Source: Planctomycetota bacterium
Lineage (GTDB): Bacteria > Planctomycetota > SZUA-567 > H5-PLA8
Assembly: GCA_026692735.1 (NCBI GenBank)
Contig: JAPLOD010000182.1
Span: 1-33,724, forward strand
Direction: 5' to 3'
Length of the DNA stretch: 33,724 nucleotides
Shown: positions 3,463-13,627 of the stretch, piece by piece
Layout: every line of letters begins with the position of its first letter
Position numbering within the stretch: position 1 is the first letter of the stretch
Notes under the pieces: generated by a model
Database searches by the model: none
Told to the model about the DNA's origin: nothing
What the model saw: only the letters and a program-made list of their open reading frames with translations
Position numbers and translations under genes: made by a program

Positions 3463-4155
3463 TCAAGATCCTGACCGCCATCCGGTTGACTCCGCCTCAA
3501 GTTGAAGGACGTCTGCGAGGCGGTAGTACAAACCAGTAAGCTTGCCGCGCTCGCCGGTGTAATCGTAGTAGGCCCCAACGATGGTCTCGTACAGTCCGGT
3601 CCTGTTCAGCCGAGTCAGTATACCGGAGAACAGCTCTTCCTGAATCCCAAGTTCCGCGCAGGCTTGCCGCTTTAGGTCTGACCAATAGCGATTGCAGCGG
3701 CCGAGATCATTCTCCTGTGATTGGCGCGGGAAACGTGCCTCAAAAGCTGCCATAGTGGTCAGGAGGCGAATCTCCCGAAATGATAATTCATCGAGAATCT
3801 GGAGAAGCTCTTCGTATTCCGTCTGGAACGAGACTGGCGGCTTTTCGGTGACGCCGGCAGCGAGCGGATTCGCGAAAAGTCTGATCTTCTCTCTCTGGCG
3901 TGTTTGCGCCGCGGAGCGTGCGGTAATCTCGCAACAATGAAAGAAGTCTTCCGAGTTGAGCAGCCGCTCAGGGATGATCGCACAATTCCGGCGCAGCGCG
4001 TCGAAGAAGGCCTCCGCTCGTTGCTTCTGGATATCGGTCCACGCTGCGGTTAACGCGACGTCAAGGTTCCCGCCGCCCGGAACAAAAGAGACGAGGTAAC
4101 GCATCCACGGGTTCTCGGCGTACGCCCCCGCTGTTTTCTGAACGGGATTGGCCAC
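3463..4155 (-). CDS. Unrecognised helical protein next to the element's left end
   Basis: I do not recognise this 230-residue protein. I chose the GTG at 4155-4153 (MANPVQKTAGAY by initiation) because AAGGA and a G-run lie just upstream on its strand. The longer open frame to 4284 runs into the tRNA-derived repeat. An ATG at 4104 (MRYLVSFVPGG) is another option. The protein has no signal peptide or membrane segment and is mostly helical. Its most family-like stretches are QTRQREKIRLFANPL and LQILDELSFREIRLLTTMA. Similar pairs of segments occur in hypothetical proteins of mobile and defence regions, but I cannot name the family. It lies on the chromosomal side of attL, convergent with the gene at 2086, and may be a remnant of an older insertion at the same tRNA. 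Confidence 0.65.
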   Translation of the reverse strand: MANPVQKTAGAYAENPWMRYLVSFVPGGGNLDVALTAAWTDIQKQRAEAFFDALRRNCAIIPERLLNSEDFFHCCEITARSAAQTRQREKIRLFANPLAAGVTEKPPVSFQTEYEELLQILDELSFREIRLLTTMAAFEARFPRQSQENDLGRCNRYWSDLKRQACAELGIQEELFSGILTRLNRTGLYETIVGAYYDYTGERGKLTGLYYRLADVLQLEAESTGWRSGS

Positions 4156-4256: not shown

Positions 4257-4301
4257 TGGTATCCCCGGCGGGATTCGAACCCACGACCTCCGGTTTAGGA
4301 A
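4257..4301. repeat. attL: 45-bp copy of the 3' half of tRNA-Arg(CCT)
   Basis: These 45 bp are identical to 13534-13578, the anticodon loop to CCA end of the tRNA-Arg gene read on the minus strand. Upstream (4256) and downstream (4302) the identity stops at once. There is no 5' half of a tRNA here. This is the displaced 3' end of the original target tRNA gene and marks the left boundary of the inserted element. Confidence 0.95.
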
Positions 4302-4545
4302 GCTCAACCCGGCGGAGCGCAGCGCAACGGCTTTAGCGCGTATTACGAGTGGAAACAGCGACAATCGCAGACAGTCAACAGCGACAGACAACGACACTGA
4401 ATTACAGAAACCGGAAGTGGTTTCGGAAGTCGTTGCGCCCGCGCTGCCGGCCGATGAACGTGAACTCCTGGACCTGTGGCACCGGCTGGACGCCGCAGGC
4501 CGCGCCGCACTGTTGGCGACGGGCAAGGCCATGGTCAAGGGATAG
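4302..4545 (+). pseudogene. Displaced C-terminal coding piece of the integrase (80 codons), joined to int only in the circle
   Basis: When 13578 is joined to 4302, as excision would do, the integrase frame crosses the junction with codon AA|G (Lys) and runs 80 more codons to TAG at 4543-4545. The predicted tail starts LNPAERSATALARITSGN, has a polar linker, and ends with a helical segment containing ERELLDLWHRLDAAGR and ALLATGKAMVKG. Codon third positions in the last 35 codons are mostly G or C, as in the neighbouring genes. The pattern of W, spaced leucines and arginine is like the C-terminal helix seen on many integrases of this type. In the integrated state it has no start codon upstream except one late ATG, so it is probably not translated. 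That it is real coding sequence is inferred. Confidence 0.75.
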
Positions 4546-4919
4546 GTTGATGCAAGGAGATTGCCAAGGTGTACGGGGGTGCATTTCGCCACACTTGCGG
4601 AAAGAGCGCGTGGCTTGCCGTGAGGTCTTCGCTCGCCAAGCGCTTTCAGAAATTATGTAACGAAAGTCGTGCAGGACTTTGAGGGACTGAAGATGGCGAT
4701 GGTATCTCGGTTGGCTGGCATGACGACGCGCGGGCTTCGTGCTGCTCCTTGTCTACGGAGGCGCTACGGCGTCCAGGAATGACGATCTCGACGCGGGTGT
4801 ACCAAAGTGCCAGACGAGGCAGTGGACCTCGAAAACAAGCCATTGCAGGCCATTGGCGCCCCCCTACAGCGATGCTCAGTCGCGGGGGTACGGTTGTGGC
4901 AAGGGTCAGACAGAGCTTG

Positions 4920-4941
4920 CCGGCGGGTGCATCCCCGCTGG
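4920..4941. repeat. 8-bp stem hairpin
   Basis: CCGGCGGG at 4920-4927 can pair with CCCGCTGG at 4934-4941 (one G-T pair) around a 6-base loop. It lies directly before the first of two related composite hairpins. There is no T-run, so terminator activity is not implied. Confidence 0.45.
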
Positions 4942-4942
4942 T

Positions 4943-4978
4943 GTCGGGCGTTGTGCGGGCGTTCGCCTGCCGCCCGAC
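4943..4978. repeat. Composite hairpin, copy 1
   Basis: The outer stem pairs GTCGGGCG (4943-4950) with CGCCCGAC (4971-4978). A 4-base bulge (TTGT) leads to an inner stem of GCGGGC (4955-4960) with GCCTGC (4965-4970), closed by loop GTTC. The total is 14 pairs with one G-T. A second copy with compensating base changes is at 5036-5070. Confidence 0.65.
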
Positions 4979-5035
4979 GAAGGACCAGGACTCGGACAGA
5001 TGGACGACTCGGACGAAGGACACCTGATTAGCGGG

Positions 5036-5070
5036 GCTGGGCGTTTGCGGGCGTGTGCCTGCCGCCCAGC
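5036..5070. repeat. Composite hairpin, copy 2
   Basis: The outer stem pairs GCTGGGCG (5036-5043) with CGCCCAGC (5063-5070). A 3-base bulge (TTT) precedes an inner stem of GCGGGC (5047-5052) with GCCTGC (5057-5062), closed by loop GTGT. Compared with copy 1, two adjacent outer pairs differ on both strands (T-A/C-G versus C-G/T-A), so pairing is kept. It ends 30 bp before the start of the gene at 5101 and could affect its expression, or be a REP-like element. Confidence 0.65.
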
Positions 5071-5100
5071 CACAAATAGAACTGAATGGAGGTTCTTCCC

Positions 5101-5517
5101 ATGAGCGGCGAAGACGACGAAGACGACGAAGACGACGAACAGCCCGAAGTGCCAGGGACGGCTGGCGAGAGCGCGCGGGACTGCGATTCGTGCAGGTACT
5201 CGTGCTCGGCCGATGGGCTTGCGCAAGTGCACGTGCCGGTGTGCTGCCGATGCGCATCGCGCGGCGCATTTCTGCCGGCTGAGGTTGTGAAGGCAGCCTG
5301 CGACGGGAAGCCCTGCGGCTCGTTCCAAGCCAGGGCATCGTTGTCGGACTGTCAGCTTGGTACGCTGCGAAAGCAACAAGAGTCCATTGACGAGTTGGCT
5401 CGCAAGATTGCCTTCGGTTCGGTGGCGGATGAAGCCGCCGACAAGGCGGAGAAATCTTCTGCGGCCAGCGCCGCCTGCAGGCCGGCGCCCTTGCCGCCAA
5501 AAGGGGCATGGCTGTGA
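5101..5517 (+). CDS. Acidic, cysteine-rich small protein of the element, unknown function
   Basis: This 138-residue protein starts at the ATG preceded by GGAGG with an 8-base spacer. The N-terminus is an acidic run (DEDDEDDEDDE) encoded by near-perfect GAAGACGAC repeats. Residues of about 28 to 62 carry a cysteine cluster (CDSCRYSC, then CCRCASRG, then CDGKPCG), suggesting a structural metal site such as zinc. A helical segment follows (LRKQQESIDELARKIAFG), then a low-complexity Ala/Pro tail. I do not recognise the family. It is the first gene of the element's rightward gene series. In the circular form it would lie downstream of the integrase. The acidic repeat could be recent expansion, so the exact N-terminus is less certain than the body. 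Confidence 0.6.
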   Translation: MSGEDDEDDEDDEQPEVPGTAGESARDCDSCRYSCSADGLAQVHVPVCCRCASRGAFLPAEVVKAACDGKPCGSFQARASLSDCQLGTLRKQQESIDELARKIAFGSVADEAADKAEKSSAASAACRPAPLPPKGAWL

Positions 5518-5781
5518 ACTCAGCGCGGTCTGAGCGCCATCTCGGGAACATCGATCTCGGTGGCTTGCTTCGGCCGTGCGCCGTCGGGAGAATGTGCCCT
5601 TTCCGCCATTCTCCTGACACGCCGGTGGGTTTGGTCCGGGGAGCCAAACACTTGCCGGCAACCGCCGAATGACGGCGGCGGGGCTGCACGGTGCATCTTT
5701 CACCGCGCGCCACAGGCCTGGGAGCGGCCCCAGACGACTCGAACTCTCCCGGGCAACTTACCTCTGAGAAAGGAGAACGAC

Positions 5782-6195
5782 ATGGAAAATGCTAGACTTG
5801 GTTTGGGCTTGCTGGGCAGCGATTCGGGCGGCGGAATGGCGCCGAGCACAGGGTGGCCGATGGGCGCACGGAGGGGGCCGACGCACCTGGGCGTGGACGA
5901 CCTTTCCCGCGTGTCTGGTGTGAAGCAGGAAACTCTGCAACGCTTGTTGGACACGCACCCGGCTCTGCGGCGGTTGCGCATCCGGCTGAACGACGACGCC
6001 GAGCCTGCAGCGGTGTGGGGCGTGTGCGACGAAAAAGTGCGCGAGGTGCTGTCCGCGCTTGACCGGCTGCGCTTCAAACAGATCTTGCGAAACGAGGATT
6101 ACTTGGCGGGGCGCGTGCCCGATGCTTTCACCAGCCAGCAGCGAGAGTTGTTTGAGATCGAGTCGCGGTTTCCGGGCGCGCCGGACGTGCCATGA
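5782..6195 (+). CDS. Unrecognised element protein with a possible helix-turn-helix
   Basis: This is a 137-residue protein. The ATG at 5782 has AAAGGAG six bases upstream, which is why the longer open frame from 5560 is not used. After a glycine-rich N-terminus, residues of about 35 to 95 (LGVDDLSRVSGVKQETLQRL through VREVLSALDRLRF) have the rhythm of a helix-turn-helix followed by a dimerising helix, but I cannot confirm this without a profile search. Its stop overlaps the next start in ATGA, so the two proteins are translationally coupled and probably work together. No signal peptide or membrane segment is visible. Confidence 0.65.
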   Translation: MENARLGLGLLGSDSGGGMAPSTGWPMGARRGPTHLGVDDLSRVSGVKQETLQRLLDTHPALRRLRIRLNDDAEPAAVWGVCDEKVREVLSALDRLRFKQILRNEDYLAGRVPDAFTSQQRELFEIESRFPGAPDVP

Positions 6196-6407
6196 GCGGA
6201 TCAATGATGCCGTTGGTGGAGTCGTTGAAAACGCCGGCAGTCGGCGACGAGCTACTCCGCCAGAACGCGGCGCATCCTGGGCTGGCTGACGACGCTCTGG
6301 TAGCGGCGACAATGGCGGCTTTGCCCAGCGGATTTGCAAGCGTGGCGCACGCGCGCGACGTGCTCAAGCGCCTCGTGGACGGCGGGATCATCGTGCGGCT
6401 GAGGTGA
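6192..6407 (+). CDS. Small unrecognised protein coupled to the preceding gene
   Basis: This 71-residue protein starts in the ATGA overlap with the gene ending at 6195. It is predicted all-helical with a short C-terminal strand (GGIIVRLR). The segment ASVAHARDVLKRLVDGGIIVRL looks like a helix plus wing of a small winged-helix domain; this is a guess from the pattern. It has no transmembrane segment. Its G/C-ending codon use matches its neighbours, and the coupling supports it being real. Confidence 0.6.
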   Translation: MSGSMMPLVESLKTPAVGDELLRQNAAHPGLADDALVAATMAALPSGFASVAHARDVLKRLVDGGIIVRLR

Positions 6408-6543
6408 GGCCAGTCCTTGGCTGGATTGACCGGCTCGAAGTGTGGTAGAGTAAAAAGCTGGGGATAGGCTTGCAACCGAAAAGCGCGCAAGTCCAACGCG
6501 CCTTCCCTGGCTTCAACCTTGGACGCGCAAAGGACACGCGCCA

Positions 6544-7305
6544 ATGACCACCGCAGCACCCATCCCCACTACCAGGGCACAGCAACGAGACATACTTGCA
6601 CGACAACTCGGAAAGCTCACAGACGCTCAACGGCTGGAGATGCTGGCGGAATGTCTGGGCAGGATTCAAAAATGGCACGAGGGTCTCAATCGTGACGCTG
6701 CGCTTCTTGAGTCTGGACGGCTGCCTATTGGGGATCCCAAAGACTTTGATGCTCTCGGCGGTTGCCGGCATGAAGCCGCACATGATCTGGCCTTGCTTTT
6801 GACCAGAGACGAGAAGATTGGGGCTTTCCTACGATCAGAGGGCATGGTACTTGAAAAGCTGCGGGAAGCCATGAGACATCTTGCAGAACGGAACTACTGC
6901 GAAGCCAGCACGCTAGACATTAGACCCGAAATCTTAGACGGCCAGAACTACGTGCGCATGGTTTTGAAAGTGCTGGACGCCGCACCCGCCGCCGGACAGC
7001 CGGCCGCTGAGACGCCACCACCGCCGCCGCGAGGCAAGCGGCAACGCCTCGATTGGCCAACACTCCAAAAGAAGGGACACGACCTTCTGAGAAGGGCGCA
7101 ACGCCAGAGAGAGCTACTAAGCGCTGAAGTTGTCGCTGACCGACTGGGGCTTAGGTCGAAAGCACAGGTAGTGAGGCTGACTGAATGGGCGCCGTATCTC
7201 GCATGGAAGGCGCAGTACACAACACGCAAGCTGCGCATCAGCCGCAACTCGGGGATTCTGGCCATCCTCAACGACCCAGACCGTGATGACGCCAACGAAG
7301 AGTGA
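6544..7305 (+). CDS. Unrecognised 253-residue element protein
   Basis: AAAGGA lies nine bases before the ATG. The N-terminal half (to about residue 145) is helical and rich in charged residues (QRDILARQLGKLTDAQRL; KLREAMRHLAERNY). A proline-rich linker follows (ETPPPPPRGKRQR). The C-terminal domain (about 170-245) contains LLSAEVVADRLGLRSKAQ, which resembles the start of a small DNA-binding helix-turn-helix, then a basic strand region (TTRKLRISRN). A linker joining two domains and its place upstream of the primase-helicase suggest a replication accessory or regulator, but this is inference only. There is a 136-bp gap before it and a 113-bp gap after it. Confidence 0.6.
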   Translation: MTTAAPIPTTRAQQRDILARQLGKLTDAQRLEMLAECLGRIQKWHEGLNRDAALLESGRLPIGDPKDFDALGGCRHEAAHDLALLLTRDEKIGAFLRSEGMVLEKLREAMRHLAERNYCEASTLDIRPEILDGQNYVRMVLKVLDAAPAAGQPAAETPPPPPRGKRQRLDWPTLQKKGHDLLRRAQRQRELLSAEVVADRLGLRSKAQVVRLTEWAPYLAWKAQYTTRKLRISRNSGILAILNDPDRDDANEE

Positions 7306-7379
7306 ACAAACACAGAGCGTTTATGAACAAAAATACCTCGCAGACTCCGCTGACTTAGTGAACAGCCTGCCATAGGTGA

Positions 7380-7398
7380 GGGCGCCACTTTGGCGTCC
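7380..7398. promoter_or_regulatory. 8-bp hairpin upstream of the coupled replication genes
   Basis: GGGCGCCA at 7380-7387 pairs with TGGCGTCC at 7391-7398 (one G-T) around loop CTT. It ends 7 bases before the GGAGG of the gene at 7419, so it could shape translation of the 7419-7628-8032 series. There is no T-run. Confidence 0.4.
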
Positions 7399-7418
7399 GC
7401 ACTGTGGAGGTTGCTCGA

Positions 7419-7631
7419 ATGCCGCGCATCCCGGTCCTCATCAATGGGCATATCGTGCGCCTGCCGTCGGAGATCACCGTCGGCGAGGCACAAGCCTTGT
7501 CTGGCCTCACCGCGGATAGATTCAACGAAGAGCTGGCGCGCATGATGGCTGGACATGCCAGGCAGAAGGGGACTCCCACCGTCGCCGCGCCGTCCGCACC
7601 GCCGCCCACTGGCGAGGGGGTGCAGCCGTGA
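7419..7631 (+). CDS. Small protein with a possible beta-grasp-like N-terminus
   Basis: This 70-residue protein starts at the ATG with GGAGG eight bases upstream; the in-frame ATG-like start at 7404 overlaps that site and is rejected. The N-terminus IPVLINGHIVRLPSEITVGE followed by AQALSGL reads as two strands, a turn and a helix, as in small ubiquitin-like (beta-grasp) domains, but the protein is short and the match is only a pattern. The C-terminus is Pro/Ala-rich. Its stop overlaps the GTG start of the next gene, so it is translationally coupled to the primase operon. Confidence 0.6.
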   Translation: MPRIPVLINGHIVRLPSEITVGEAQALSGLTADRFNEELARMMAGHARQKGTPTVAAPSAPPPTGEGVQP

Positions 7632-8035
7632 CCACGCCGAACCTGGACAAGCAGGCTCTATCTGAGCTGGGTGTGCAAACACAGGACGTCACGCCCGCGG
7701 AGTTGGCGTATCTCAAGCGCCGCAAGGCTGAACTGGAGCCTATCGAGTGCCCCGAGCCGCTCGTGATTCAGCAGCTCCTTGCTGCAGAACTCCACATCAA
7801 GCGCGTGTGGAATGATGAGCAGCGGTGCTTGAACGACACGCCCGAGAACATCGCCGAACTGCAATACCAGCGGCAGCGCCTCGACGAACTCGGCAAAGAA
7901 CGTGCTGTCTGGATGGCAAGGTACGACGCCGCGGCCATCGGGTTGGGGCTTCGACGCCGCAAAAAGGCCGACGCGCCCGCGCCGCTTGCGAGTCTCTGGC
8001 TTCGCTGGCGTCGGCAGAAAGGGGCCGCGCAATGA
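7628..8035 (+). CDS. Unrecognised coiled-coil-like protein coupled to the primase-helicase
   Basis: This is a 135-residue protein with a GTG start in a GTGA overlap with the previous stop. Its own stop overlaps the ATG of the primase-helicase in ATGA. The middle (residues of about 25 to 105) is strongly helical with heptad-like spacing (AELAYLKRRKAELEP; IAELQYQRQRLDELGKERA). The C-terminus is basic (LRRRKKADAP; LWLRWRRQKG), compatible with nucleic-acid binding. The tight coupling on both sides points to a role with the replication protein. The family is not recognised. Confidence 0.65.
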   Translation: MTTPNLDKQALSELGVQTQDVTPAELAYLKRRKAELEPIECPEPLVIQQLLAAELHIKRVWNDEQRCLNDTPENIAELQYQRQRLDELGKERAVWMARYDAAAIGLGLRRRKKADAPAPLASLWLRWRRQKGAAQ

Positions 8036-10263
8036 ACGTGGCCACGCAAGCGGTGAGGCCGGACATGCACGCCGCCGCCGTGTTTCTGGAGCACCTGGAA
8101 GCAAACGGCGTCTTCTCATTCCAGTGCTTTGACGACAGCAAGGACAAGCGCCCAGAACTGGCGCGCGTCCTGCACGGCACCTTGGCCCAACACGCGGACG
8201 AACTGACCCGGCTCAACGAGCAGGGCGCCGGAGTCTTCGTCGCGGTCAACGCGACTGACGGGCGCGGTCGCAAGGCCGAGAACGTGGTAGCGGTCCGTGC
8301 GCTTTTTGTGGACGCGGACGACGTGCCGCTCCCGGAAGCGTGGCACGTGCGGCCAAGCATCATCAACAAGCGGGACGAACGGCACTGGCACGCCTTCTGG
8401 GCGGTGTCGGACATGCCGCTCTCTGAATTCGGCACTGCTCAGAAACGGCTCGCGGCGTACTACCACACCGACCCCAAGGTCTCGGATCTCCCCCGCGTCA
8501 TGCGCCTTCCTGGATTCTTCCATCGGAAGGGCGAGCCGATCTTGGTGACGACGTGGGAGTCGAGGCCCGAAACGTACACCGTCCCCGAAGTCTTGGTTCG
8601 GTTGCCCGAACTCCCTGCTTCGATACCCGCTCCACAGCCCGCCACGCTGCCGGCAAGCCAGGGCGACAACGAGCGTCTATTCTCGGCCTGGGCTGCCAAG
8701 GCGGGGGAAGACGCCGTGGAAGGCAACCGCAATAACCAGCTTTTCCGAATCGCCGCGGAAGGCTGCGGGCGCGGTTTGTCTCTCGACTTTGTCCAGTCAG
8801 TCTGCCTGGAGCACGCGAACGGCCTCGCAGAAACCGAAGTCCGGCGCACAGTCCAATCCGCCTACCGGAAGGAACGCAGCGCCCATCCACCACCGGCCAG
8901 GGCGCCGGATGCGAAGACCGCCGCGGCGCCGGTCGTCGTAGAGGAAGCTGAGGACGAACCACCAACGCTCGCCAACTACCACGCGCTCTCGGCGCAGGTG
9001 GAAGAGTGGCGCCACTCCCTCACGCCGGAGGAGATCTTCGTGCGGTGCGTCGGGGGGGGGCATAAGCCGCGCGTGGTTGCGTACATCCTGCGGTGCACGT
9101 TTGGCTGGGACACGGACGAGACCGAAGCGCGGTATCGAAAAGCGCTCAAAGCCAAGCCTGCCGCACCCCCGCCGCCGGCCGAAACCGCTCCACAGGCCGC
9201 TGTAGAGAGCCGCGCACAGTCTTTGAGCCTGAAGGATCTTCTCTCATACGACGTGGAGGACAACGCCGATTGCCTGCTTGGGAAGCGCTACTTGTGCCGT
9301 GGCCAAAGTCTCCTGCTGCCGGGGCCAACGGGCATCGGAAAGAGCAGCTTGGTTATTCAAATGGCGCTGGTCCTGGCACTCGGGAAAGACTTCTTCGGCA
9401 TCATGCCCACGCGGCCACTACGGTCCCTCGTGCTTCAAGCCGAGAACGACCTCGGCGACTTGGCAGATATGACGCGCGGCGTGGTGAACGGCCTTGACCT
9501 TCCCGTGTCAAAGATCAAGGACGGGATGACCGTCATTAGCGAAACATCGGTATGCGGCGCTGCGTTTCACCTGTGGGCAAGAACATTGATCCTTCGGTAT
9601 CGGCCCGACATCGTCGTTGTTGATCCGGTCTTCGGCTTCCTGGGCGGGAATGCGAGCGACCAAGGCGTTGTCAGCACGTGGTTGCGGAACGGTCTGGGGA
9701 CGATCAGCCAGGAAACTGGCGCCGCCTGGATATTGGTCCACCACGTCAAGAAGCCGGCGGAAGTTGAACTCGCACGGAAGGATTCCGACTACGCGTATCT
9801 CGGCTTCGGCAGCGTCGAATTCGCCAACTTCTGCAGGGGCGTCCTGGCACTTCGCGACGTTGGAAGCGGTAGATACGAGCTGCGCGCAGCCAAGCGGGGG
9901 TCTCGCTCTGGGCTGGTGGACAACCACGGGCAGCCCACCGACACGGTCTTTCTTCGCCATGCGCGCGCCGGCATTTGCTGGGAACGCGCGGATGAACCCG
10001 AAGATGAGCGTGTCTCGGGCGAAGAAGCTGACGCGCAAGAAGTCTTCGATCACATGGAACCCGGCAAGGAGTACAACACGAACGGCTTGATTCAACTGGC
10101 CTGTGAAGCACTCAAGAAGACCCGCGGCAACTTCACGAACCCCGCCAAACGCGGCGCCCGGGTGCTCAAGATCATCAAAGATAGAACGAAAAAGCCGGGC
10201 CAAAACTGGCTTTTCCTCAAAACAGCGAAAGATACCGCCCTCTTTCCCGGAGGTATCCACTAA
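8032..10263 (+). CDS. Primase-helicase fusion (RepB-like primase plus RecA/RepA-type ATPase), element replication protein
   Basis: This 743-residue protein probably initiates and drives replication of the excised element. The start is the ATG in ATGA overlap with the previous gene, not the longer frame from 7825. The N-terminal 210 residues match the RepB-like primase-polymerase pattern: RALFVDADDVP with acidic pair Asp94/Asp96, HWHAFWAVSD, and RVMRLPGFFHRKGEP. A linker with low-complexity Pro/Ala follows. A RecA-fold ATPase starts near 415: Walker A GPTGIGKSS (Lys437), Walker B DIVVVDPVFGF (Asp526 to Asp531), and a GAAWILVHHVKKP motif, as in plasmid RepA hexameric helicases. The last 80 residues may form a small DNA-binding domain. 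A run of nine G at 9052-9060 lies in frame within the linker region. The iteron cluster begins 15 bp downstream. Confidence 0.88.
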   Translation: MNVATQAVRPDMHAAAVFLEHLEANGVFSFQCFDDSKDKRPELARVLHGTLAQHADELTRLNEQGAGVFVAVNATDGRGRKAENVVAVRALFVDADDVPLPEAWHVRPSIINKRDERHWHAFWAVSDMPLSEFGTAQKRLAAYYHTDPKVSDLPRVMRLPGFFHRKGEPILVTTWESRPETYTVPEVLVRLPELPASIPAPQPATLPASQGDNERLFSAWAAKAGEDAVEGNRNNQLFRIAAEGCGRGLSLDFVQSVCLEHANGLAETEVRRTVQSAYRKERSAHPPPARAPDAKTAAAPVVVEEAEDEPPTLANYHALSAQVEEWRHSLTPEEIFVRCVGGGHKPRVVAYILRCTFGWDTDETEARYRKALKAKPAAPPPPAETAPQAAVESRAQSLSLKDLLSYDVEDNADCLLGKRYLCRGQSLLLPGPTGIGKSSLVIQMALVLALGKDFFGIMPTRPLRSLVLQAENDLGDLADMTRGVVNGLDLPVSKIKDGMTVISETSVCGAAFHLWARTLILRYRPDIVVVDPVFGFLGGNASDQGVVSTWLRNGLGTISQETGAAWILVHHVKKPAEVELARKDSDYAYLGFGSVEFANFCRGVLALRDVGSGRYELRAAKRGSRSGLVDNHGQPTDTVFLRHARAGICWERADEPEDERVSGEEADAQEVFDHMEPGKEYNTNGLIQLACEALKKTRGNFTNPAKRGARVLKIIKDRTKKPGQNWLFLKTAKDTALFPGGIH

Positions 10264-10277
10264 TTCACCTATGAACC

Positions 10278-10373
10278 GGATACCTGGATACCACTGGATA
10301 CCTGCTGGATACCTCGAAGGGTGGATACCTGGATACCTCCCTCTCTATAGGGAGTATCCGGTATCTGGTATCC
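10278..10373. other. Iteron-like GGATACC cluster, candidate origin of replication
   Basis: Six exact GGATACC copies lie in direct orientation starting at 10278, 10286, 10296, 10307, 10323 and 10331; five of them are followed by T. Three inverted copies follow: AGTATCC (10353), GGTATCT (10360) and exact GGTATCC (10367). Between the two sets CTCCCT (10337-10342) pairs with AGGGAG (10349-10354). The cluster lies in the 237-bp gap directly after the primase-helicase gene. Repeated short sites next to a Rep gene are the usual form of iteron origins. The spacing (8 to 16 bp) is less regular than in classical plasmids, and no clear DnaA box is seen. Confidence 0.7.
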
Positions 10374-10500
10374 AGTCTCCTAAGCTCAATGAACTCCGCC
10401 AGAGCAAGGTGGTCGCTTCTGGAGCGGTCACGTTCTCTCTGTGTTGGGCGCGTGTTGTTGACCTGTTGTGTCCTTGTTCGGCCGGCGGGAGGGTTTGAAG

Positions 10501-10824
10501 ATGCCTGAGTCGCCCAAGCTGTGGATCATCGTGGCCGCAGCAGCCGATGATGGGGTGCTGAGCTATCACCAAGCGCTCTATTCCGATGAAGCCACGGCCA
10601 GGGCTGCCGCTGAGGGCCTGAACCTTCCAGGGCGCGTGCTCGTTGCGCCCGTCCGCCTTGACCTCAGCGAAGCCAAGGAAGTCATCGCGGCGGCGCCGGC
10701 GGGCGTCAGGAGCGTGACAGACACGACACCCAGCTCGCCGGCACCCGCCGTGCCTGTCAGCGACCCGCGACCCGCAACACCATTTCTGGACGCGGCTGCA
10801 AACAACCCGTGGCGGGGAGACTGA
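10501..10824 (+). CDS. Small element protein, paralogue A (C-terminal NPW motif)
   Basis: This 107-residue protein starts at an ATG with GGGAGGG seven bases upstream. The N-terminal 55 residues form a compact alpha/beta-like unit (KLWIIVAAAADDGVLSYHQA, then LYSDEATARAAAEGL, then RVLVAPVRLDL). A Pro/Ala/Thr linker follows, and the protein ends in NNPWRGD. The next gene has the same architecture: an aromatic strand, an LYxxxEEA helix, a second strand pair, a linker and a terminal GNPW. They are thus tandem paralogues. The short conserved tail resembles a peptide docking motif. The function is unknown. It is the first gene after the iteron region. Confidence 0.65.
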   Translation: MPESPKLWIIVAAAADDGVLSYHQALYSDEATARAAAEGLNLPGRVLVAPVRLDLSEAKEVIAAAPAGVRSVTDTTPSSPAPAVPVSDPRPATPFLDAAANNPWRGD

Positions 10825-10828
10825 ACGC

Positions 10829-11173
10829 ATGAAGAACGGTGTCGCGAACGCCATGCCTGACGCGCTGGAAGTCCGCACAGTTGAACGCTGGGTTGTCTGC
10901 GTCGTTCGCGCCGACGGCGAGACCGTCGAGGTGCTGAGCCAGTTGTACCACACGCGAGAGGAAGCCGAGTTTGCGGCTTCGTTCCACAGGCGCGATTTCC
11001 GCGGCGTCACCGTCCGGGCCGCGCAGTGTGTTGTGTCCATCGTCCTGCCAGCGCCGGCCGCAACGGGCGCCGTGCCAGACGCCGGCAGCCTGCAGCCCGT
11101 GCAAGCAGCGCCCGCCGTGCAAGAGCCTACGTTCCGCGGCGATCCTGGCAACCCGTGGCAAGAGCCGCACTGA
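10829..11173 (+). CDS. Small element protein, paralogue B (C-terminal NPW motif)
   Basis: This is a 114-residue protein, four bases after paralogue A. Residues of about 15 to 65 align with paralogue A: RWVVCVVRADGETVEVLSQ, LYHTREEAEFAASF and VTVRAAQCVVSI. A Pro/Ala linker leads to GNPWQEPH. The ribosome site and start region (TGAACGCATGA at 10822-10832) is repeated at 11179-11189 before the next gene, as if a module with its initiation region had been duplicated. No catalytic motif or membrane segment is visible. It could be a binding module for the replication protein or for a helper phage factor; this is speculation. Confidence 0.65.
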   Translation: MKNGVANAMPDALEVRTVERWVVCVVRADGETVEVLSQLYHTREEAEFAASFHRRDFRGVTVRAAQCVVSIVLPAPAATGAVPDAGSLQPVQAAPAVQEPTFRGDPGNPWQEPH

Positions 11174-11185
11174 GGAGTTGAACGC

Positions 11186-11446
11186 ATGACGAACCGCGTC
11201 AAGAAGATCCTCGCCACCCGCAGAAGGGCATACGGTCACCCGGCTGCCGAGTTTGCGCGCGTGGCCGCCATGTGGTCTATCATCCTGAACAGCAAGGTTA
11301 CGGCCGCACACGTCGGCCTGTGCATGATCTGCGTGAAGTTGGCGCGCGAAGTCCATTCTCATAAGCAAGACAACCTCGTGGACCTGTGCGGCTATAGCGC
11401 CTGTGTCGAGGAACTCTACCGCCGCAAGAAAGGGAAGCAGCGATGA
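11186..11446 (+). CDS. DUF6378-like small phage protein
   Basis: This 86-residue protein starts at the ATG preceded by GAGGAG. It matches the pattern I know for DUF6378, a small protein common in phages and prophages: an N-terminal basic helix with RRAYGHPAAEFARVAAMW, then VGLCMICVKLAREVHSHKQ, then DNLVDLCGYSACVEEL. The DN...D..GY signature is the key feature. The family's role is not established. Its presence argues for a phage-related rather than purely plasmid origin of the element. It overlaps the next gene in ATGA, so the two are coupled. Confidence 0.75.
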   Translation: MTNRVKKILATRRRAYGHPAAEFARVAAMWSIILNSKVTAAHVGLCMICVKLAREVHSHKQDNLVDLCGYSACVEELYRRKKGKQR

Positions 11447-11883
11447 CCGAAAGCACGCCCGTAAGTATAGCGCCCGCAGTCGAGAGAGTCCAGTCCGGGC
11501 CAGACCCGAACGTGCGCCCGCTGGACCCGTTGGGCGTCGCCACGTTCAGCGCGTTGCCGATACGGCGGAGATCCAAGGCGCCGGCTGTGGCACCCGCCGC
11601 CGTACCGGCTGCAGGACCGGGAACGACCGAGCCGGAGGCACCCTCACAGCCGGCTGCAGGACAGGGCACGGCGCCGGCTGGTGTCGCAACAGAAGTGTCC
11701 GCACCTGCCCTTGTCGTCAGTCTAGCCAAGGCAGCCAAGATGCTGAACATCTGCAAGCGCACGGCTGAACGGGAACGCGACAGAGGCAAGCTGCGCTGTC
11801 TGCTGATAGGCGGGCGCTGGAAGGTTCGGGTGGGGGAGTTGCACTCATACTTGCGCCGGATGGAAACGGAATCTGCAAGATAG
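11443..11883 (+). CDS. Excisionase-like HTH_17 protein with long Pro/Ala-rich N-terminus
   Basis: This is a 146-residue protein coupled to the DUF6378-like gene by ATGA. The C-terminal 50 residues are an excisionase/MerR-type helix-turn-helix: VVSLAKAAKMLNICKRTAER, then ERDRGKLRCLLIGGRWKV as the recognition helix and wing, then RVGELHSYLRRM. The N-terminal 90 residues are disordered (Pro, Ala, Gly, Thr rich). The position just upstream of the integrase promoter fits a recombination directionality factor that bends att DNA and favours excision. A transcriptional regulator is the alternative. The long disordered arm is unusual for excisionases, which are normally 60-80 residues. Confidence 0.75.
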   Translation: MTESTPVSIAPAVERVQSGPDPNVRPLDPLGVATFSALPIRRRSKAPAVAPAAVPAAGPGTTEPEAPSQPAAGQGTAPAGVATEVSAPALVVSLAKAAKMLNICKRTAERERDRGKLRCLLIGGRWKVRVGELHSYLRRMETESAR

Positions 11884-11886
11884 TCC

Positions 11887-11915
11887 TTGACTAAATGCAG
11901 CGCATTTAGTATAAT
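11887..11915 (+). promoter_or_regulatory. Near-consensus sigma70 promoter with an internal perfect palindromic operator
   Basis: TTGACT (11887-11892) and TATAAT (11910-11915) are 17 bp apart. Inside lies a perfect inverted repeat, ACTAAATGC (11890-11898) and GCATTTAGT (11902-11910), with spacer AGC. The repeat covers the end of the -35, the whole spacer and the first base of the -10, so a bound dimer would block RNA polymerase. The first codon of the RHH gene is at 11922, seven bases after the -10, so the transcript is probably leaderless. The RHH product is the obvious candidate for the bound protein. Confidence 0.85.
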
Positions 11916-11921
11916 GAGGGT

Positions 11922-12098
11922 ATGGCGAAAATGGGAAGACCGAAGCTGCCAGCACGTGACCGAAGGCGATTCACTGTGCATATCCGCGTGAACGCGGCAG
12001 AGAAGCGAGCTTTGCGGGAAGAAGGCCGGGCCGCCGGCGTCAAGATGCTGGCGCGGTGGATACGGGCCAAACTGCTAAAGGGGCTGCCATGCAAGTAA
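11922..12098 (+). CDS. Ribbon-helix-helix (Arc/CopG/MobC-like) small DNA-binding protein
   Basis: This is a 58-residue basic protein. RRRFTVHIRVNAAEKRAL gives the N-terminal strand and first helix, and EEGRAAGVKMLARWIRAKLL the second helix, the pattern of RHH repressors and MobC-type accessory proteins. The ATG at 11922 sits at the expected transcription start, so translation may be leaderless; an in-frame ATG at 11931 is the alternative. It is the first gene after the palindromic promoter and overlaps the integrase start by ten bases, so the two are cotranscribed and probably translationally coupled. I infer autorepression of itself and the integrase. With no relaxase in the element, a mobilisation role is less likely. 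Confidence 0.75.
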   Translation: MAKMGRPKLPARDRRRFTVHIRVNAAEKRALREEGRAAGVKMLARWIRAKLLKGLPCK

Positions 12099-13627
12099 CG
12101 AAGATCCGCAGCAAGAAGACGGGCCGCGTGGGCTGGAAGTGGCGTTTCACGGACCCCGTCACGCACCGCAAAACGGAAAAGCGCTTCTACGTGACGGAGC
12201 TCTCCCTGGCTAAGCCGATGTTTGACGCCCATTACAACGGCTTGCAGGCCAAGGCGGAGAATCTGCCGGACGGCACAGGCTGGAAGCTGCCCTTCCTGGA
12301 ACTGGTGCAGCGATTCTTGAGCGAAGCACCGATCACCAGCGAACAGCGCAAGGGCGATCTCCGCCGCGTCCTGGAACGAAACGAGCTTGAGCTTGAGTAC
12401 GCCCGCGACTTGAACGACATAGGACGGTTGACGGCCGCGTGCCGCAAGCTGCTCGAAGCCAAGACGTGCGACGCCGCGTATTTCACGCACACGCTGCAAC
12501 CGTACCTGCGTCAAGTGAGCCGGTGGGCGTGGGAGAGCGGCATTCTGCCGACGCACCCACTGGGCCGCTGGCGCAAGTTGCCCTTCGGACACGAACCCCG
12601 GAAGCGGCGCGCCTACACCGCGGACGAAGTGCAGGCGATACTGGACGCCACGCGGAAGCTGGACGAAGCCTTCGGGCGCCGCTATCCGCTCGAAATCGTG
12701 TTGCGGACGCTCGTCACGTGCGGGAACAGGCCGGGCGTCATGCTGCGGGCCACGATTGCCGACCTGGAACCAGACCGCGTGAACCTGCCGGCGGGCGTGG
12801 GCAAGAAGCGCAACGGCGCCGGCACGCTGCCGGCTGAACTGGTGCAGGAGCTTCGCATCTACGCCCGTGGTCGGGGAGCGAGCGCGCCGTTGCTGGTCTC
12901 TGCGGACGGTGACGGTCTGGACCGCCTGAACCTGTCGAAGCGGGACTTCTGGTCTTCCGCAACGCTGGCGTTCGTGACGGCATTGTGGCCGAATGGTGAC
13001 ACGGCCACGCAGCACGCGACGCCCCTGGAAGTGGCTGCGGTGATTGCAACGGGCAGGCGTCACAAGTTTGACGGGCGATCACCAACGAACCCCGCCAAGG
13101 TGCAGGAACGGGAACAACGCAAGGCAGCGATTGACAAGCTGGCCGAAGATATGAAGCCGCTGGTGGCGGCGAAACTGGCCGGGCGTGACCTGTACGCCTT
13201 CACGCGCAAGACGCACATCACGCTGGCGCGGTCGCACGGCGTCCACCCGGACGCGGTGAACGTTCAGGTTGGCCACAGTGACGGCAGCGTGGAAGAGAAG
13301 TACTACCTGGACGACAGCCAACTGAACCCTTCCGCGTCGTCCAGCATGGTCTACAGCCTGATTTGCCCACCGCGACAGGTGGAGATCGAAGGTAACGTGC
13401 TGCGGCTGGCCGCGGGCTCAGAATCGTGGAATCCTGAAGCGGTTTCGGCAGTCGGTGGCGAAAACGGCCACGAAAGACAACCGGAAGTACGCCAAGCCTT
13501 CGCGCAAGCTACTGGTACGGCAAGGACTTCGGATGGTATCCCCGGCGGGATTCGAACCCACGACCTCCGGTTTAGGAAACCAGCGCTCTATCCTGCTGAG
13601 CTACGGGGACACAGATCTGGGCAGTAA
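12089..13627 (+). CDS. Tyrosine integrase, with C-terminus swapped by integration
   Basis: This integrase would cut and join att sites in tRNA-Arg. The start is the ATG at 12089 (MQVTKIRSKKTGRVGW), which overlaps the RHH stop and has AAGGGG upstream, rather than the in-frame ATG at 12056 inside the RHH gene. Residues of about 55 to 175 are the core-binding region. The catalytic part holds Arg214 (TCGNRPG), a candidate lysine (GVGKKRNG), Arg373 (AFTRKTH), His396 (VGHSDGS) and the nucleophile Tyr405, nine residues after His396. The usual histidine three residues before the second arginine is alanine here. Residues 483-497 are read antisense through the 3' half of tRNA-Arg. The last 15 residues (PALYPAELRGHRSGQ) are host sequence. 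In the circle the protein would instead be 577 residues, ending with the tail encoded at 4302-4545. Confidence 0.9.
   Translation: MQVTKIRSKKTGRVGWKWRFTDPVTHRKTEKRFYVTELSLAKPMFDAHYNGLQAKAENLPDGTGWKLPFLELVQRFLSEAPITSEQRKGDLRRVLERNELELEYARDLNDIGRLTAACRKLLEAKTCDAAYFTHTLQPYLRQVSRWAWESGILPTHPLGRWRKLPFGHEPRKRRAYTADEVQAILDATRKLDEAFGRRYPLEIVLRTLVTCGNRPGVMLRATIADLEPDRVNLPAGVGKKRNGAGTLPAELVQELRIYARGRGASAPLLVSADGDGLDRLNLSKRDFWSSATLAFVTALWPNGDTATQHATPLEVAAVIATGRRHKFDGRSPTNPAKVQEREQRKAAIDKLAEDMKPLVAAKLAGRDLYAFTRKTHITLARSHGVHPDAVNVQVGHSDGSVEEKYYLDDSQLNPSASSSMVYSLICPPRQVEIEGNVLRLAAGSESWNPEAVSAVGGENGHERQPEVRQAFAQATGTARTSDGIPGGIRTHDLRFRKPALYPAELRGHRSGQ
13534..13578. repeat. attR: 45-bp core within tRNA-Arg and within the integrase gene
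   Basis: Identical to attL at 4257-4301. It covers the tRNA from the anticodon loop to the encoded CCA end, and also integrase codons 483-497. The element supplied this half, so the tRNA is restored intact after integration. Confidence 0.95.
13534..13610 (-). tRNA. tRNA-Arg (anticodon CCT), with encoded CCA
   Basis: The minus strand folds as a full cloverleaf. The acceptor GTCCCCG pairs with CGGGGAT, including a G-T first pair. The D stem is GCTC/GAGC. The anticodon stem is CTGGT/ACCGG with loop TTCCTAA, giving anticodon CCT, and the T arm is GTGGG-TTCGAAT-CCCGC. Discriminator A and CCA (13534-13536) are encoded. It reads AGG. The element occupies its 3' side. Integrase transcription would run antisense across the gene. 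Confidence 0.96.

Follow-up and report, generated by a model that had tools for sequence, protein, structure and literature searches.

An integrative element of a planctomycete with its attachment site inside the integrase gene, and a conserved C-terminal hairpin that integration would detach

The window analyzed here, a stretch of 33,724 nucleotides of a Planctomycetota bacterium, carries a 9.3-kb element inserted in a tRNA-Arg(CCT) gene and bounded by identical 45-bp repeats, one of which lies within the open frame of the element's own tyrosine integrase. Our main reading, to which we give a probability of roughly 0.7, is that this is an attP-in-int element, in which integration removes a conserved hairpin from the integrase, yielding a weaker or altered enzyme and a stabilized integrated state. 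The anatomy, the in-frame joint both here and in many relatives, and the conservation of the hairpin at the protein level are established from sequence. Most probably the tail has its role in the excised form, and losing it would damp re-excision. The directionality of integrases is usually ascribed to a dedicated excisionase. In this element, direction may be encoded in the gene itself, in that the enzyme of the recombination product differs from that of the substrate.

The two copies of the repeat are exact and have a spacing of 9277 (Table 1). The element has the Islander signature: the tRNA is intact, an integrase is present, and the fragment displaced from the tRNA lies in direct orientation. 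The tRNA-Arg(CCT) has no second exact copy of full length in the genome, where the next matches are 73–80% identical. The HTH_17 protein upstream of int has an E-value of 0.0067 against the excisionase model TIGR01764 excise, which is under that model's cut-off, and Pfam reports no phage structural genes in the element frames scanned. As part of the best explanation, we take this planctomycete element to be small and integrative, with a tRNA gene as its target and a tyrosine integrase of the lambda-like kind.

Table 1. Features of the element in the coordinates of the window.
Feature	Position	Strand	Basis or remark
Core, left copy (displaced 3′ part of tRNA-Arg)	4257..4301	+	exact repeat; second-best genome match of the tRNA
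Detached integrase C-terminal tail, 80 codons and stop, in the int frame across the 13578-4302 joint	4302..4545	+
Arm-like direct repeat, tail side	4407..4430	+	20/24 identical to 13429-13452
Conserved two-helix tail hairpin (ADERELLDLWHR / AAGRAALLATGKAMVK)	4450..4539	+	alignment; AlphaFold2
Replication protein: RepB_primase, PriCT_1, AAA_25	8080..10263	+	frame open from 7825, start uncertain
DUF6378 protein	11186..11446	+
HTH_17 protein, excisionase-like, candidate directionality factor	11443..11883	+	HTH_17 E = 1.1e-8
Tyrosine integrase, integrated form, 512 aa	12089..13627	+	Tyr406 at 13304-13306
Arm-like direct repeat, int side, within coding sequence	13429..13452	+
Core, right copy, within the int frame, codons 482-497	13534..13578	+	exact repeat; frame reading
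tRNA-Arg(CCT), restored, running antisense to int	13534..13610	-
Host-encoded new integrase C-terminus, 15 codons and stop, mostly antisense-tRNA reading	13579..13627	+

The int frame, open from 11960 and with an inferred ATG start at 12089, crosses the tRNA and ends with the stop codon 13625-13627. An earlier, sequence-only reading had placed the core inside this open frame of 512 codons, and both the repeat and the frame agree with it; its codon range of 483–497 needs a small correction, as the first base of the core is the third of codon 482. We recomputed the joint that it had proposed, and when 13578 is joined to 4302 the frame is indeed kept, up to a TAG at 4543-4545, so that 1490 + 241 nt make 577 codons.

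By its R...R...Y arrangement and its fold, the window protein is a tyrosine recombinase of the phage integrase kind. R373 and Y406 are invariant and R214 is nearly invariant in 28 integrases, and an alignment of 9 sequences gives the same Tyr406 as the invariant nucleophile. The catalytic tyrosine is thus retained as had been claimed, with 406 replacing 405 as its number. All the catalytic residues are upstream of the core and present in the integrated form, which upholds the earlier statement that only the C-terminus is exchanged, unlike in SSV-type integrases. The window integrase matches a profile of 25 other integrases with a probability of 98.8, and the best solved folds found by Foldseek are those of lambda integrase, with TM-scores that are low (about 0.2–0.3). 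The Pfam family PF00589 is matched at E ≤ 0.01 by 26 of 28 integrase frames, and it has no match to the window integrase itself. The N-terminal domain is predicted as three strands plus a helix, while residues 429–481, preceding the core, have a predicted pLDDT below 50, which fits the linker expected there.

By sequence comparison the tail is real protein sequence, and its end is conserved over the phylum. The last ~30 residues form a predicted helical hairpin, DLAxLxxxWPxLPxAxRAAxLA; AlphaFold2 applied to a 50-residue segment of the tail puts helices at 20–31 and 34–49, where block-mean pLDDT values are 90–96. The GC content by codon position is 0.69/0.51/0.66 in the tail versus 0.68/0.49/0.76 in int. 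The C-terminus of the tail matches orphan tails elsewhere in its own genome (E = 1.4e-7). A search of 392 genomes of the phylum using the single tail sequence gave mostly chance matches (only one of the 23 frames read, L063, is a plausible orphan tail), and for that reason we built profiles. The tail profile then finds matches in 107 of the 392 sampled genomes (E ≤ 0.001). The coding-like GC by codon position, the homologous tails and the conserved end all bear out the earlier proposal that 4302-4545 is coding. The dN/dS values of the tail favor the same in part: they are 0.59, 0.49, 0.44, 0.34, 0.83 and 0.25 in the six most similar pairs, some members of which recur from pair to pair, with two of the six values weak, high dS in some pairs, and arm sites that may constrain synonymous positions.

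Most tails are found alone. Among the 150 matches listed, 136 are in open frames shorter than 250 aa, away from any integrase, and 5 are in frames longer than 380 aa (G260, G311, G360:2332151, G312 and G235:C23). Two of these long frames (G360c and G312) are paired with a downstream integrase, and no integrase is found in the parts read of the other three. The 608-aa frame of G235:C23 was considered as an intact int-plus-tail gene and rejected, as its upstream part is not integrase-like. Pfam, NCBIfam, PHROGs and solved structures offer no known family that the tail matches consistently, and the matches there are isolated and weak. We found no free circle and no contiguous int-plus-tail gene, and single-sequence searches with either the tail or the integrase had no match in viral contigs, phages or plasmids. 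A further viral search produced five viral relatives, all without the tail; four are complete at 424–430 aa, and two of those four are alike in the part compared.

How general is the in-frame joint? We hand-picked 70 tail sites from the profile matches, mainly ones with enough contig, although 11 of them had less than 6 kb downstream. A repeat of at least 16 bp recurs downstream at 36 sites. Using the longest repeat, a frame of at least 150 aa is found in the phase of the tail at 29 of the 36 (P = 8e-9 under three equal phases). The count of in-phase integrase-length frames becomes 31/36 if the inner core copy is used in two tandem arrays (G053:C5 and G245:C18), where that copy was picked after inspecting the frames; without that choice it is 29/36. 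At G309:C5 and G372:C1, the repeats counted (22 bp and 27 bp) are arm-like, and the true core of 14 bp at the former and the 20-bp core at the latter are in phase as well. An in-phase frame of at least 150 aa is absent at five sites, the tandem choice included (G175:C136, G376:C125, G301:C45, G222:C16 and G053:C5b). The other 34 of the 70 sites have no repeat of at least 16 bp, 11 of them with 38–58 kb searched. Ten further named loci show an in-phase joint at L165 only, and seven of the remaining nine had less than 4 kb downstream. In all four tandem arrays, the tail of the neighbor reads the shared core in a frame other than that of the first integrase, so the phase follows the element and not the core.

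The arrangement recurs at about twelve types of tRNA, with integrases only 13–23% identical to that of the window. As an example, a second, distant integrase in the same genome (L030) has the same arrangement at a tRNA-SeC, with a 19-bp core and a homologous tail. In the 400 bp that precede the tail, T-arm motifs are found antisense at 45/70 sites and sense at 23/70; in control stretches taken downstream, of which two fall short of 400 bp, the numbers are 7/70 and 1/70. On whether homologous integrases stop before their att site, a point raised by the sequence-only reading, the outcome is mixed: int runs into the antisense tRNA at 8 of 17 loci, that of the window included, and the relatives L006, L015 and L017 stop 72–122 bp short of their tRNA. 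L023, a relative for which a core was found, has an open extension of 77 aa with no recognizable tail. The three early stops and L023 speak against the earlier suggestion that the tail may control the direction or stability of the enzyme. The closest relative, L004 (52% identity), has no second core or tail within the 18 kb examined, and its genome has one tail-profile match, which is not among the positions listed.

The core is also flanked by putative arms. Arm-like repeats around the core reach p < 0.05 in direct orientation at 21 of 31 sites, and in inverted orientation at none of the 31. For the window, the 20/24 repeat is reached by 0 of 40 resampled sequences, while its exact 10-mer by itself is not significant (p 0.117). 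These values come from first-order resamplings, 60 for the 31-site set and the 10-mer, and 40 for the window 24-mer.

The mechanism that we propose is the following. The attP, core plus arm-like repeats, sits within the int frame, in what is presumably a flexible linker that joins the catalytic domain to the conserved hairpin, and in the excised circle int would encode the full 577-aa protein. Recombination at the tRNA core would then cut int: the catalytic part would gain a short antisense-tRNA end (512 aa), and the hairpin would be left start-less at the opposite end of the element. The excised-form enzyme would need the hairpin, which perhaps packs on the adjacent subunit in the synapse. 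Along the lines reported for the Myxococcus phage Mx8, integration would thus leave a weaker or altered integrase and stabilize the integrated state. With such a weaker enzyme, excision would require extra integrase or the excisionase-like HTH protein.

The closest precedent is the integrase of Mx8. As reported in later papers, its attP lies within int, integration swaps 112 residues for 13, and the product is less active (PMC4701971); a changed specificity of the prophage integrase is described in PMC6070905. As in Mx8, the attP here is inside a tyrosine int, the frame crosses the core in both forms (the circular one inferred), the catalytic domain is kept and the C-terminus is exchanged. By our own reading of AF396866, the Mx8 int also has an antisense T-arm-like stretch in frame, and the record annotates an excisionase just upstream of int. 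The tail profile has no match in the Mx8 genome AF396866 up to E = 10; such homology bears on common descent with the Mx8 tail and is not required for a shared arrangement. Unlike Mx8, which is a tailed phage, the element has no phage structural gene by Pfam in the frames scanned, and its tail is common to divergent integrases over a phylum.

In archaeal SSV, attP is in int and integration splits the gene (PMC8371274); the N- and C-terminal parts are separated, with the catalytic domain on the C-terminal fragment, whereas here a non-catalytic tail alone is lost. Streptococcal ICEs in rumA have attR inside int, so that the length and the C-terminus of the integrase change between the excised and the integrated form (PMC4701971), but they use a serine recombinase and a protein-gene target. 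The predicted N-terminal domain and the top Foldseek matches (at low TM-scores) resemble lambda-type systems, and the arm-like direct repeats around the core may be a counterpart of the lambda arm sites. The attP of lambda is outside int, unlike the one here, which is within it. In the literature searched, we found no conserved detachable tail common to divergent integrases across a bacterial phylum; Mx8 and SSV are the precedents. The Mx8 precedent, the wide occurrence of the arrangement and the arm-like repeats around the core had all been missed by the earlier reading.

Other explanations have to be weighed. That the frame across the junction is open by chance, in GC-rich DNA and antisense tRNA, both of them often open, would agree with L023 and with some tail frames that extend far upstream into unrelated sequence; yet the tail homology in other genomes and the phase counts make it hardly credible, and for the window the conserved tail contradicts it. 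The tail could also be a small gene of its own, or a regulator, that is expressed by itself in the integrated state, with the in-frame joint incidental. An in-frame ATG, GTG or TTG at least 12 codons ahead of the W..L motif does exist in 20 of 31 paired tails, but one with a ribosome-site-like 4-mer in only 3 of the 31, and in-phase joints at 29–31 of 36 sites would be unexpected; we regard this as very improbable.

A suicidal integration as in SSV would have a dead integrated enzyme, excision by the intact integrase of another element, and arrays and orphan tails as remains. Orphan tails are common, tandem arrays occur, and no intact int-plus-tail gene is present among the frames read. Against this, the integrated enzyme retains its catalytic domain, R373 and Y406 included. 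We also discarded restoration of the integrase by the next element in tandem, as the neighbor tails are out of phase in 4/4 arrays, an outcome for which chance gives about one in five; on the whole we find suicidal integration unlikely. A stronger contender, with an appreciable though minority chance of being right, is that the integrase simply has the hairpin as a structural end needed in the excised form only, that its loss is a by-product of having attP in the gene and serves no regulation, and that the excisionase alone governs excision. It accounts equally well for the conservation and the phase, there is an excisionase-like HTH gene upstream of int, and the integrated form has its catalytic residues intact. 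What speaks against a mere by-product is the lower activity reported for the Mx8 prophage form (PMC4701971), and the recurrence at about twelve tRNA types with 13–23% identity, which may point to a position kept by selection.

For the reading that integration itself reprograms the enzyme, the occurrence of the detachable piece in many related bacteria suggests, as far as genomes can tell, a widespread built-in switch. In its fullest form, Planctomycetota elements would share a self-editing integrase switch: a regulatory hairpin specific to the excised form would be removed by the enzyme's own recombination, reprogramming it towards the integrated state, and the module would be kept by or passed among divergent integrases at about twelve tRNA types, with its frame re-tuned to each core. 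We hold this tentatively, at somewhat less than even odds. A detachable tail conserved phylum-wide offers many natural replicates for testing the role of the tail. Integrases annotated from such chromosomes are missing their true C-terminus, and orphan tails are practical markers of element ends.

Re-deriving the repeat, the integrase frame and the joined frame bears out the coordinates of the sequence-only reading (see table), although the catalytic tyrosine placed there at residue 405 is Tyr406 in the aligned integrases. The window spans one entire contig (G000:C182), and its genome has no second exact full-length copy of the tRNA-Arg(CCT) gene. When the two copies of the att core are recombined, the integrase continues in frame into an 80-codon stretch, the tail, which the integrated element carries at its other end. 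The excised circle would encode the full integrase, including the helical hairpin at the end of the tail, and integration would leave a hairpin-less integrase ending in whatever sequence adjoins the core. The codons added after the core range from 2 to 228 over the 31 elements that have a tail, a repeated core and an in-phase integrase frame (the paired set).

Features of the window element at its two junctions
Feature	Position	Strand	Remarks
Exact 45-bp direct repeat (core)	4257-4301 and 13534-13578		
tRNA-Arg(CCT) gene		minus	3′ part is the right 45-bp repeat copy
Integrase, integrated form	ATG 12089 (start inferred) to stop 13627		512 aa; crosses repeat and antisense tRNA
Integrase, copies recombined	13578 joined to 4302; stop 4543-4545		577 aa
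Host-derived integrase end beyond core	13579-13627		15 codons
Arm-like repeat, imperfect	13429-13452 and 4407-4430		20/24 identical; 0/40 resamplings equal

That the 80-codon stretch is real protein, as had been proposed, is confirmed by homologous tails in the same genome and across the phylum. A distant integrase of the window's own genome (L030), with a tRNA-SeC target and a 19-bp core, stays in frame across that core and continues into a tail of 105 residues, the end of which is homologous to the window tail (E=1.4e-7, 50% identical over 44 residues). Two further tails (L035 and L063) are orphans without an attached integrase, the second directly after an apparent 5′ half of tRNA-Lys. A four-sequence tail profile has matches in 68 of 392 sampled genomes of the phylum (E<=0.05), and a 31-sequence profile in 107 of 392 (E<=0.001), including 71 of the 217 better genomes and 13 matches within the window's genome. 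Among the matches listed, 136 of 150 lie in open frames below 250 aa, and an apparent antisense tRNA precedes many tail frames (29 tail loci inspected). Comparing a 50-residue tail to contigs of 84,980 species gives at least 12 loci, all those listed being titled Planctomycetota or subgroups; among the 12 listed, one is the query and another (L166) matches residues 1-17 only. Searches of Pfam, NCBIfam, PHROGs and solved structures give the tail no consistent match to a known family. Its fold as predicted by AlphaFold2 is a hairpin of two helices (mean pLDDT 83.9, 90-96 across the helices).

For the six tail pairs that are closest to each other, some tails being used in more than one pair, the dN/dS ratios span 0.25-0.83 (about 0.59, 0.49, 0.44, 0.34, 0.83 and 0.25); dS is high in some pairs and possibly lowered by arm sites in others. 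These ratios indicate mostly purifying selection on the tail as a protein. Since the tail is chromosomally detached in every paired element, it is most likely the excised form on which selection acts, which would mean that the elements still cycle.

The relation between tail and integrase was evaluated at 70 tail sites, hand-picked from both profile searches mainly by available flanking sequence. At each site, the 450 bp ahead of the tail were compared with the DNA beyond it, ignoring frame, and the longest shared repeat was taken; all three phases at its far copy were then checked for a long frame. A repeat of at least 16 bp is present at 36 of the 70 sites. Using the longest repeat, a frame of at least 150 aa is in the tail phase at 29 of these 36, in another phase only at two (G175:C136, and G245:C18 by its outer copy), and in no phase at five; if phases were equal, P = 8e-9 for at least 29. 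The inner copies in the tandem arrays G053:C5 and G245:C18, selected after the frames had been seen, lead to an in-phase integrase, for a total of 31/36. The 34 sites with no repeat have downstream DNA of less than 6 kb (11), 6-20 kb (12) or 38-58 kb (11). PF00589 is found at E<=0.01 in 26 of the 28 in-phase frames scanned by Pfam (of the 31, those whole in one stretch), the exceptions being the window protein, unmatched, and locus L233, marginal at E 0.011. Ten separate loci from the 84,980-species scan include one in-phase joint (L165, with a 53-bp core and a 505-aa frame that continues about 98 codons beyond the hairpin); it is absent at the other nine, seven of which have less than 4 kb downstream. 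The tRNA targets in the paired set include Arg, SeC, Leu, Lys, Ser, Gly, Phe, Ala, Asn, Ile, Val and His.

In four tandem arrays, the next element's tail uses a different frame over the shared core than the first integrase, with a chance probability of about one in five for 4/4 out of phase. The core being read in different frames per element, the open frame belongs to the element and not to the core; and a neighbour's tail, being out of phase, would not restore the first integrase in those four arrays. Different elements lie in tandem at a single site in G000:C517, G016:C83, G053:C5 and G245:C18 (L099, L100, L118, L127-L129).

Some results among relatives of the window integrase count against the arrangement. 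The att site had been placed inside the gene, and 8 of 17 integrase loci (window counted) do extend into antisense tRNA, but the integrases of L006, L015 and L017 stop before it, 72-122 bp short of their tRNA. The related integrases found in viral contigs terminate shortly after the catalytic domain and lack the tail, and no free circle was seen among the viral contigs, phages and plasmids searched. The tail has no match in 13 integrase-centred stretches (0/13), and therefore the window is the sole shown tail-bearer in its own integrase family. The nearest relative (L004) has no second core and no tail in the 18 kb examined; its genome has one tail match (position unlisted). Another relative, L023 at tRNA-Arg(gcg), has a 51-bp core (3611-3661 and 17264-17314) and a joined frame open for 77 aa, yet without a recognisable conserved tail.

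The window integrase is unrecognised by Pfam and NCBIfam. Eight relatives can be aligned with it, all sharing the catalytic residues, and the profile of this group and one built from 25 further integrases in the study match at a probability of 98.8. For its predicted structure (mean pLDDT 78.5), the best solved match is lambda integrase, at E near 1e-4 and low TM-scores of about 0.2-0.3. The N-terminal domain of the model has three strands plus a helix, which we take to resemble the arm-binding domain of lambda Int. Residues 429-481, directly ahead of the core, have pLDDT below 50, as expected of the flexible linker they may form.

An attP within the gene would place arm sites in coding sequence. 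The 300 bp to the int side and to the tail side of the core were compared for exact repeats, against 60 first-order resamplings. Of 31 elements, 21 have direct repeats that exceed the resampled lengths (p<0.05), and none has such inverted repeats. Several are, by eye, doubled motifs at a spacing of about 12 bp, resembling arm-type integrase sites. The exact 10-mer inside the window repeat is not significant (p 0.117).

How does losing the hairpin affect the enzyme? For the Myxococcus phage Mx8, the integrated-form integrase is described as less active in a passage of PMC4701971, and as altered in specificity in a passage of another review (PMC6070905). By analogy, the integrated-form enzyme here would most likely also have reduced or altered activity; the loss may instead be merely tolerated. 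When integrated, int transcription in the window would run antisense across the host tRNA-Arg gene (13579-13627), which might be a cost of expressing int after integration.

Integrases reaching across attP are known for Mx8 and the archaeal SSV (Islander, a passage of PMC4383910), and ICEs in rumA are a serine-integrase counterpart (a passage of PMC4701971). Neither a conserved detachable tail nor this arrangement in Planctomycetota is described in the literature searched, which lies mostly outside subscription journals.

The window element also carries a replication protein (RepB_primase/PriCT_1/AAA_25, 8080-10263) and a DUF6378 protein (11186-11446), and Pfam shows no phage structural gene in those of its frames that were scanned; the element might be an integrative plasmid or a satellite. 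Another element, 3.5 kb long and located at tRNA-His, has an integrase frame (L246:3395-4939, G235:C34) in which the catalytic domain (PF00589, E=2.6e-8) is preceded by the N-terminal domain of a T7-type RNA polymerase (PF14700, E=5.9e-16, residues 2-248). Three elements of 1.1-2.8 kb, L233 (G263:C44), L245 (G222:C16) and L144 (G376:C125), have a core pair and a tail with a short or truncated integrase frame, and are perhaps decayed remnants.
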